From positions 1 through 29,109 of the IMG/VR virus record IMGVR_UViG_3300025630_000038: a stretch of DNA of 29,109 nt. One strand, given 5' to 3'. The stretch comes from a virus. This document shows positions 14,013-15,631 of this stretch, in pieces. Position 1 is the first letter of the stretch, and the number at the start of each line of letters is the position of its first letter. A model generated the notes under the pieces. That model worked only from the letters and a program-made list of their open reading frames with translations. It was not told the origin of the DNA and searched no databases. A program made the translations under genes and the position numbers.

Positions 14013-14612
14013 ATGGCAATTGAAGCAGCCACGTATATTAGCGATTTGGTCTCCACCAATCCCGAAGCAACCGACAACGTAAGTACCGCAGATGACCACC
14101 TGCGGCTAATCAAGGCGGCTGTCAAGGCAACCTTCCCGAACGTGTCTGGCGCGGTCACTCCGACGCATACTGAGCTTGGCTACGTCGCCGGTGTCACATC
14201 TGCGATCCAGACTCAGTTGGACGCCACCGCAACACTTACTGGCACAGAGACATTCACCAACAAGACCCTGACAAGCCCGACGATAACCGGCGCGGTGCTG
14301 AACGACGGGTATACCGAGGAAGTCTACGCTGTTTCTGGAACGACTCCGGCACTCAGTCCGACAAACGGAACGATCCAAACGTGGACGCTCTCTGGCAACA
14401 GCACTCCCACTGCAGGAACCTGGGCAGCAGGGCAGTCGATCACGATGATGATCGACGACGGGACAGCCTACACGGTTGACTGGTCATCGGTATCGGTGAC
14501 CTGGAAGACGGGCAGCGGTGGCGCACCAACGCTTAACACTAGCGGATATACAGCAATTGCGCTTTGGAAGGTCGGCAGCGACATCTTTGGCGCCCGTGTG
14601 GGGGACGCCTGA
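14013..14612 (+). CDS. Short tail-fibre-like virion protein, 199 aa
   Basis: The first 70 residues match the attachment region often seen at the start of podovirus fibres: YISDLVSTNPEATDNVSTAD, then DHLRLIKAAVKATFPNVSG, then THTELGYVAGVTSAIQTQLD. The linker TGTETFTNKTLTSPTITGAV is the common phage-fibre repeat of Thr-rich strands. The end, PTLNTSGYTAIALWKVGSDI and GARVGDA, resembles the C-terminal beta-sandwich of short fibre proteins. It lacks a long shaft or enzymatic domain, so it may be a connector or small receptor-binding protein. It starts 3 bases after the adaptor stop, and its stop shares one base with the propeller gene's ATG, suggesting the two products work together. Confidence 0.78.
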   Translation: MAIEAATYISDLVSTNPEATDNVSTADDHLRLIKAAVKATFPNVSGAVTPTHTELGYVAGVTSAIQTQLDATATLTGTETFTNKTLTSPTITGAVLNDGYTEEVYAVSGTTPALSPTNGTIQTWTLSGNSTPTAGTWAAGQSITMMIDDGTAYTVDWSSVSVTWKTGSGGAPTLNTSGYTAIALWKVGSDIFGARVGDA

Positions 14613-15631
14613 TGCTGACAAGCAAGGTGCTCGGCGCGAAGGGCGCGGGAGTGGGACCATCACCCTATATTGCCGTCGCTCATTCAGTCTCTCTGTATAT
14701 ATCGGTTTACAATTGGTCCAGCGGGTTCGGGTCCAAAGTTTCAGACCCGGCTACACTGCCGCCAAACTTTGCGCAGGGCGTAGCATTCAGTCCCGATGGA
14801 GCGGACATTGCTGTTGCTCATGGCACCACCCCGTTCGTATCAGTTTACCCATGGTCCAGCGGGTTTGGGGCGAAATACTCCGATCCGGCTACATTGCCAA
14901 CAGGCACAGGGCAGTGCGTAGCATTCAGCCCAGACGGGGCAGACCTGGCTGTCTCTCACTCCACCTCCCCGTATATATCAGTTTATCCGTGGTCTAGCGG
15001 GTTTGGGACGAAATATTCCAACCCAGCCACATTGCCAGCGGGCACAGGGTATGGCGTAGCATTCAGTCCAGATGGGGCGGATATTGCTGTTGCTCACGCC
15101 GGCTCCCCATATATATCGGCTTACCCGTGGTCCAGCGGATTTGGGACGAGATATTCCAACCCGGCTACATTGCCGCCAAGCACGGCGCGCGACGTAGCAT
15201 TCAGTCCGGATGGGGCGGATATTGCTGTTGCTTCCCAATTGACCCCGTTTATACTGGTTTACCCGTGGTCCAGCGGATTTGGGACAAAATACTCCAACCC
15301 AGCTACATTGCCGTCAAACACGGCTCTTTCCGTAGCATTCAGTCCCGATGGAGCGGACATCGCTGTTGGGCATAGCGGTTCCCCGTATATCTCTGTTTAC
15401 CCATGGTCTGGCGGATTTGGAACGAAATATTCTGATCCTTCCACGTTGCCAGCGGGCAATGGGTATGGCGTAAGGTTCAGTCCAGACGGGGCAGATATTG
15501 CTGTCGCTCATAGCAACAGTCCTTATATCTCTGTTTACCCTTGGTCTAGCGGCTTCGGCACAAAATACTCCGATCCGGCTACATTGCCAACGGGCGTAGG
15601 AAACGACGTAGCTTGGGCGCCGCCAACGTAA
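14612..15631 (+). CDS. Seven-bladed beta-propeller tail protein (46-residue tandem repeats)
   Basis: A 339-residue protein that is almost entirely seven tandem 46-residue units starting at residues 20, 66, 112, 158, 204, 250 and 296, the last two residues short. The consensus is IAVAHSxSPYISVYPWSSGF, GTKYSxPATLP, six variable residues, VAFSPDGAD. The FSPDGADIAV motif is that of WD40/YVTN-like blades, and the sevenfold count gives a closed propeller. Differences between blades are concentrated in the six residues after TLP and the three before P(Y/F)ISVY. There is no signal peptide. Position after a short fibre gene points to a virion surface role, such as receptor or glycan contact. ATG 14612 shares a base with the previous stop. 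Confidence 0.88.
   Translation: MLTSKVLGAKGAGVGPSPYIAVAHSVSLYISVYNWSSGFGSKVSDPATLPPNFAQGVAFSPDGADIAVAHGTTPFVSVYPWSSGFGAKYSDPATLPTGTGQCVAFSPDGADLAVSHSTSPYISVYPWSSGFGTKYSNPATLPAGTGYGVAFSPDGADIAVAHAGSPYISAYPWSSGFGTRYSNPATLPPSTARDVAFSPDGADIAVASQLTPFILVYPWSSGFGTKYSNPATLPSNTALSVAFSPDGADIAVGHSGSPYISVYPWSGGFGTKYSDPSTLPAGNGYGVRFSPDGADIAVAHSNSPYISVYPWSSGFGTKYSDPATLPTGVGNDVAWAPPT
14669..15628 (+). repeat. Tandem 138-bp repeat array, about seven copies
   Basis: Seven head-to-tail copies of a 138-base unit encode the propeller blades. Stretches such as the DNA for YPWSSGFG and for FSPDGAD are close to identical in all copies, while two short windows per copy vary. Frequent near-identity suggests recent duplication or ongoing recombination between copies. 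Confidence 0.88.

Follow-up and report, generated by a model that had tools for sequence, protein, structure and literature searches.

A hypervariable seven-bladed propeller as a candidate exchangeable receptor-binding tip of an SU10-like phage tail fibre

Why would a short-tailed phage carry, directly behind a tail-fibre gene, a second gene built of seven repeats whose frames hardly change and whose loops differ from repeat to repeat? The window analysed here, a fragment of 29 kb (29,109 nt) from IMG/VR, belongs to an SU10-like short-tailed phage and has matches to the SU10 portal (584 bits), the SU10 major capsid protein and the SU10 adaptor. An earlier note, made from the letters of the window, had proposed a receptor-binding propeller. 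From a propeller with variable loops beside a fibre gene we still read this as most likely, and we consider it quite probable, judging from sequence comparison and modelling, that the gene encodes an exchangeable, hypervariable receptor-binding tip of the short tail fibre. The receptor role, the location in the virion and the binding of a leader peptide to a fibre socket are what we infer from the evidence below. Fibre tips largely set phage host range.

The propeller ORF (14612-15631, plus strand) encodes 339 residues, laid out as a 14-residue leader, seven 46-residue units and three further residues, and TRF run on the window DNA reports a 138-bp period in the gene. It had been described as exactly seven 46-residue units minus two residues; the seven units do keep an exact 46-residue spacing, and the remainder of that description gives way to the 14 + 7 x 46 + 3 layout. 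The ATG overlaps the stop codon of the fibre gene by one base (TGATG). Blade against blade, identity is 57-83% in protein and 58-81% in DNA, with blade 1 the outlier, so that the term near-identical used earlier suits the protein frame of the blades and not their DNA. The synonymous divergence between blades (dS about 1.1) is nearly saturated, indicating that they are not fresh duplicates; calculated on these nearly saturated sites, dN/dS is 0.13 in the frame, 2.2 in the b-c loop and 1.3 in the d-a loop. The nine named loop columns, 20% of all columns, hold 55% of the amino-acid variation of window blades 2-7, and their mean pairwise difference is 0.73 vs 0.15 elsewhere (Mann-Whitney P = 1e-6). 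Contig L003 and the window gene differ by a single G to S change, located in the b-c loop of unit 6.

Table 1. Coordinates of the propeller gene, its loops and the neighbouring tail genes in the window.
Feature	Start	End	Strand	Remarks
Adaptor, SU10 gp11-like	13401	14009	+	PF24175 SU10_adaptor, 103 bits; match to SU10 gp11
Tail-fibre gene, 199 aa	14013	14612	+	Virion anchor aa 1-66; socket about aa 82-199, conserved across loci
Socket domain of fibre	14256	14609	+	Alignment A3; tip gene follows in survey
Propeller tip gene, 339 aa, seven-bladed	14612	15631	+	
Leader ('plug') peptide MLTSKVLGAKGAGV	14612	14653	+	Disordered in model; motif common to unrelated tips; covaries with socket
Seven 138-bp units (7 x 46 aa)	14654	15619	+	
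b-c loop, blade 1 (SVS)	14684	14692	+	
d-a loop, unit 1 (PNFAQG)	14762	14779	+	
b-c loop, unit 2 (GTT)	14822	14830	+	
d-a loop, unit 2 (TGTGQC)	14900	14917	+	
b-c loop, unit 3 (STS)	14960	14968	+	
d-a loop, unit 3 (AGTGYG)	15038	15055	+	
b-c loop, unit 4 (AGS)	15098	15106	+	
d-a loop, unit 4 (PSTARD)	15176	15193	+	
b-c loop, unit 5 (QLT)	15236	15244	+	
d-a loop, unit 5 (SNTALS)	15314	15331	+	
b-c loop, unit 6 (SGS)	15374	15382	+	
d-a loop, unit 6 (AGNGYG)	15452	15469	+	
b-c loop, unit 7 (SNS)	15512	15520	+	
d-a loop, unit 7 (TGVGND)	15590	15607	+	
82-aa probably helical protein, putative propeller-specific partner	15643	15891	+	Cluster 2; helix judged from sequence
Tail-fibre chaperone family gene	15893	16438	+	Cluster 3; phrog_4998
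Nozzle, SU10 gp17-like	16656	18212	+	Presumed docking site of fibre N-terminus

An AlphaFold2 model of the window propeller, built on a 33-sequence alignment, has a pLDDT of 88 and a pTM of 0.88, with only residues 1-16 below 50 (disordered). The first unit opens with strand b, and the C-terminal strand 330-335 supplies strand a and completes blade 1, the usual way in which propellers close. As modelled, the protein is a closed seven-bladed WD40-like propeller, in agreement with the earlier note, and the open structure that would speak against this fold is not what the model gives; the outermost strand of each blade is irregular. Foldseek finds its best PDB matches among the seven-bladed WRAP designs and its best match among viral models in a protein of Pseudomonas phage POR1 (TM 0.90/0.89), and the best PDB match by sequence is the repetitive Nostoc propeller 2ymu. 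With 25.3 bits against a cut-off of 27, the protein is under threshold for Pfam WD40 (PF00400) and is WD40-like by its modelled fold, not a curated member of that family. The strand topology of the model, from which loop placement was read in place of measured coordinates, suggests that the b-c and d-a loops of all blades share one face and that both chain ends lie on the other, which would hold the variable loops away from the presumed attachment. The seven variable surface patches envisaged earlier are thus replaced by a single face on which the strand order puts both loops of every blade.

The feature is real and widespread: 210 relatives came from a first scan and at least 600 matches from each of two further scans. 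In all 170 non-redundant members among the matches listed, variability is higher in the loop columns than in the frame, as expected of the fixed scaffold with variable loops that had been described. The most variable columns within these 170 listed relatives are again loop columns, namely 11, 12, 37-39, 41 and 42; columns 4-5 and 15 vary too across the family, so that variation is concentrated in the two loops rather than limited to them. In the same 170 listed members, 1,459 of 1,648 eight-residue loop words are distinct, and one 11-residue frame word is present 723 times. The 167 distinct complete members among the matches listed comprise 99 with 7 blades, 50 with 14 and 4 with 21. Blade totals in 153 of these 167 are therefore multiples of seven, suggesting that copy number follows ring closure and that selection for closure acts on repeat number in nature. 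The 14 exceptions include four distant relatives whose blades are partly missed by the model (L093, L097, L098, L099), and most of the others are one blade off (6, 8, 13 or 15); some odd counts may be assembly errors, as short-read assemblies may collapse or misjoin repeats. The sequences indicate that a single blade can be gained or lost, yet is seldom retained. We considered the six-bladed L060 as proof of natural blade loss and found it not decisive, since an assembler could collapse repeats; the last two blades of its seven-bladed relatives have a 99-bp exact run in common. A Planctomycetota MAG (L086 7926-10724) has the same propeller fused to an apparent RHS-repeat protein, which raises the possibility that the propeller serves outside phages too.

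How do frame and loops come to evolve so differently? Frame identity is 0.79 within proteins vs 0.726 between proteins, the latter being the same for blades at the same position (0.726) and at different positions (0.726); loop identity is 0.33 within vs 0.29 between. Blades that are more alike within a protein, with no positional likeness between proteins, suggest concerted evolution of the frame or its re-amplification within lineages. A silent-site conversion test gave P < 0.05 in 28 of 152 genes among the matches listed, vs 7.6 expected, and L157 and L162 differ solely in the first three blades, in a crossover-like manner. In the window gene the same test finds no conversion signal (P = 0.50), and together with a DNA identity of 58-81% this speaks against recent unequal recombination there. 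The earlier proposal that the gene changes by unequal recombination between its 138-bp copies accordingly finds no support in the window gene. For the family it stands in part: the conversion signals and the one-blade gains and losses speak for recombination, but blade number stays at multiples of seven, so that recombination visibly homogenises the frame rather than freely altering copy number. A diversity-generating retroelement was rejected as the source of variation, as had been argued before, because no reverse transcriptase (RVT_1) was matched in the window and 19 related records (fragments), while the controls did match.

The variable loops could in principle belong to a tail tip in which they vary mostly through relaxed constraint, the frame being homogenised by recombination and diversifying selection playing no part. 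Pooled pN/pS near or below 1 for most loop columns fits this account, as do a loop excess that is not significant in the orthologues L008/L018 (P = 0.38) and the near saturation of dS between blades. However, in the orthologues L214/L234, the only pair individually significant for loop excess, amino-acid change in the loops exceeds silent change (pN 0.41 vs pS 0.14, P = 4e-4). Near-identical contigs also differ preferentially in the loops, which make up 20% of codons and take 5 of 8 amino-acid changes (P = 0.009, a SNP count that omits L157/L162, where changes are block-like and not loop-biased). In L243/L252/L314 the loops are nearly conserved while silent sites diverge, and hence appear functional. 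Relatives with identical loops, which the earlier note had listed as a finding against its claim, are thus nearly found in this one lineage and not in L214/L234. Diversified loops in L214/L234 and conserved ones in L243/L252/L314 together suggest a functional surface under episodic selection, against simple relaxation; judged from these sequences, loop diversification is episodic rather than universal. The data from relatives make relaxed constraint less likely, the window gene itself being less settled, and we regard this account as unlikely overall.

A receptor-binding tip should sit on a fibre, and the genes around the propeller bear on this. Residues 1-48 of the fibre match the SU10 short tail fibre gp16 (39% identity over 49 aa, BLASTP E 1.5e-5), a short match for which phmmer with the fibre against gp16 reported nothing, and residues 1-66 are 54-56% identical to LUZ24-type tail fibre N-termini. 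A fold search with the fibre model returned none below E 1e-3, the best being a phage capsid spike (2e-3). ORF 16656-18212 matches SU10 gp17 (E 1.7e-18), and the adaptor gene beside the cassette places the latter in the tail module. The 1-nt overlap with the 199-aa fibre gene (14013-14612) bears out the earlier remark that the propeller lies beside a short fibre gene. In 55 non-redundant loci, the fibre gene is directly upstream of the propeller in 42, a gene of about 88 aa directly downstream in 42, and a gene of about 151 aa next in 36; the cassette of fibre, propeller, ~88-aa gene and chaperone was found in dozens of viral contigs. Of 181 distinct propellers among the matches listed, 151 begin within -3 to +11 nt of a stop codon upstream, and 84 of the 181 overlap it by exactly 1 nt. 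Fibre and propeller are even a single 817-aa protein in L070/L071, whose N-terminal part matches tail-fibre families and cassette fibres. L054 was rejected as a second such fusion, because its N-terminal stretch reads out-of-frame and has no match to cassette fibres.

The counterparts of gene 15893-16438 in L082, L349, L350 and L351 contain the chaperone domain PF16778; in the window gene PF16778 was not detected, only the N-terminal family common with these relatives. The ~88-aa gene accompanies 22 of 23 propeller tips and 0 of 43 other tips (P = 1e-16), and since it was found solely with propellers it is probably a propeller-specific partner. L046 has two tandem propeller genes, each followed by its own copy of a cluster-2 gene of about 120 aa. 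The cassette does not look fixed in one phage lineage: no propeller was found beside divergent relatives of the window adaptor in their DNA examined, and an SU10-type portal is detectable in 5 of 25 propeller records, many of which are fragments. Phage_tail_2 (PF06199) had no match in the 25 records. In the cultured Pseudomonas phage POR1 (L097 7839-8870), the collagen-like orf75 overlaps a divergent propeller, orf76, in the same arrangement.

If tips are exchangeable, the fibre end that receives the propeller should also receive other proteins. A fibre search of phage records found S-CREM2, CRP-1 and MW202710 to have the socket, then an unrelated protein, then a PF16778 chaperone, with the unrelated tip gene overlapping the socket gene as propellers do. 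A socket survey of 80 contigs plus these three phages found 29 propellers and 54 other genes adjoining the socket, and the 43 complete other tips fall into about 14 families by BLASTP. Almost all of the other tips open with the propeller-leader motif ML..KL..A..G, and a score matrix made from propeller leaders alone separates them from 417 control N-termini (AUC 0.97, P = 2e-24). Over 133 distinct propeller loci among the matches listed, leader similarity follows socket similarity (Mantel r 0.75, partial r 0.75 with the propeller body controlled for, 0/500 permutations) and is nearly unrelated to similarity of the propeller body (r 0.16), and in these 133 listed loci each of the larger socket groups goes with a leader type of its own. 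Since nearly all of the leader's coding sequence lies past the socket stop codon, the reading frame of the socket does not account for leader conservation. In MW202701.1, the socket domain lies beneath short annotated ORFs, and the 'ribonuclease E' on the opposite strand beside propeller and fibre (23977-25248; L082 13121-14392) looks misannotated.

The correlation of leader with socket could also reflect physical linkage. Tip exchange might recombine at the conserved 3' end of the fibre gene, so that plug and socket travel together without docking; the leader begins within a few bases of the socket stop, and the low correlation between plug and body (0.16) is what a breakpoint after the leader would give. 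Against linkage, leaders beside many different sockets and on unrelated tips retain one amino-acid motif, and the N-termini of T2-type gp38 proteins decide compatibility (PMC12892980). A leader common to unrelated proteins favours a docking role over mere linkage, and we think linkage alone rather improbable. We put at about even the chance of a wider arrangement suggested by these sequences, in which tailed phages would share a plug-and-socket system with few socket types, each reading its own leader. Unrelated tips, the propellers and about 14 other families, could then move between distant phages as long as their leader suited the socket; the most repetitive of them would be the hypervariable propeller, which has the ~88-aa partner to itself. 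If leader and socket do pair, the fit of tip and fibre would be readable from sequence across many uncultured phages, and exchangeable tips on the same fibre end would give phages a widespread means of altering their binding. In L384 a 168-aa gene without the leader motif overlaps the socket stop; it resembles a GIY-YIG-type endonuclease by eye and could be a homing gene located where tips are exchanged.

Alternatively, the protein might serve the tail as a structural spacer or in assembly: seven-bladed propeller domains occur in the nozzles of SU10 and T7 (PMC9509320), and the gene sits in the tail module. We find this very improbable. The nozzle is a separate gene of the window (16656-18212) and comparison of the propeller with gp17 gave no significant match, for which reasons we rejected identity with the nozzle propeller; neither variation mainly on one face nor replacement by 14 unrelated families at the same place is expected of a spacer. 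A role inside the host, as interaction scaffold, anti-defence or host-takeover protein that lies beside the fibre by chance, would suit the common use of WD40-like propellers as intracellular scaffolds but is hardly credible given the start-stop overlap with the fibre in most loci, the fibre-propeller fusion in L070/L071, the chaperone in the same cassette and a leader common to other fibre-coupled proteins.

Taking the propeller as a fibre tip, we propose that the fibre is anchored to the nozzle by its N-terminus, as gp16 is in SU10, and that the C-terminal socket would hold the leader peptide of the tip. As the chain ends lie opposite the variable loops in the model, the variable face would point outward and bind a receptor on the host surface. 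Selection on this face would change specificity, while recombination and ring closure would hold the frame uniform and the blade number at 7, 14 or 21. No description of these propellers as fibre tips came to light in the open-access literature. SU10 attaches gp16 to its nozzle through the N-terminus of gp16 (PMC9509320), and the N-terminus of the window fibre and the window nozzle are homologous to gp16 and gp17; in SU10, however, the nozzle gene comes straight after gp16 and no tip gene intervenes.

The functionally nearest known system is the T2-type gp38 of T2, S16 and PP01, a separate tip protein that sits on the gp37 tip via its N-terminus and has hypervariable loops on a fixed scaffold (PMC12892980). 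An incompatible pair was made functional by swapping the N-terminal part of gp38 (PMC12892980). The window tip likewise has a distal gene of its own, which follows immediately on the fibre gene with a 1-nt overlap. A possible analogue of the N-terminal attachment of gp38 would be the leader, which covaries with the socket (partial r 0.75). However, gp38 is a polyglycine-helix sandwich, whereas here we find a WD40-like propeller with a leader of about 14 residues, a small partner and a PF16778-family chaperone gene. By analogy the propeller may work likewise, although it is not a gp38 member. The Alteromonas phages A5 and V22 offer a further parallel, a tail fibre and chaperone common to distantly related phages (PMC10579305); their fibre is a different one, and the word 'propeller' is absent from that report, the passages of which that were consulted describe no leader-socket pairing (PMC10579305).

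A second kind of parallel concerns the mode of evolution. The WD40 domains of the fungal NOD-like receptors HET-D/HET-E show concerted evolution, with hypervariable binding-surface sites under diversifying selection (PMC12222747, PMC4986451), and the window family too has alike frames (0.79 within vs 0.726 between) and diversified surface sites. HET-D/HET-E repeats are >80-85% identical, whereas the window blades, at 57-83%, fall short of that level, and here we have a phage tail gene with no NOD domain and blade number in multiples of seven. The propeller would be a recognition surface evolving like the fungal WD40 immune sensors, a rigid ring with fourteen loops on one face. The nearest PDB entries by sequence and by fold, the Nostoc 2ymu propeller and the WRAP designs, are highly repetitive beta-propellers. 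Amplification from single blades is general among propellers (PMC9218822). That study concerns fold evolution and counts viral propellers, and the word 'phage' is absent from its text.

Other parts of the window contain further features. Between capsid and adaptor (10837-13404), three genes resemble sugar or methyl transfer enzymes, namely a TPR protein with a weak glycosyltransferase-9 match, a weak glycosyltransferase-8 and a methyltransferase-like protein, which might modify the virion or the fibre. Near the end of ORF 18467-19819, an ORF with no family match, lies a 36-bp tandem repeat of 2.4 copies (19723-19807). A 402-aa protein (26440-27648) combines a weak ADP-ribosyltransferase-like (ART-PolyVal / DUF3990) stretch with an endolysin-family PHROG match. 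Additionally, a phage region of Pararhodobacter sp. CCB-MM2 (L092 7258-9918) contains the complete cassette and has two unknown PHROG families in common with the window.
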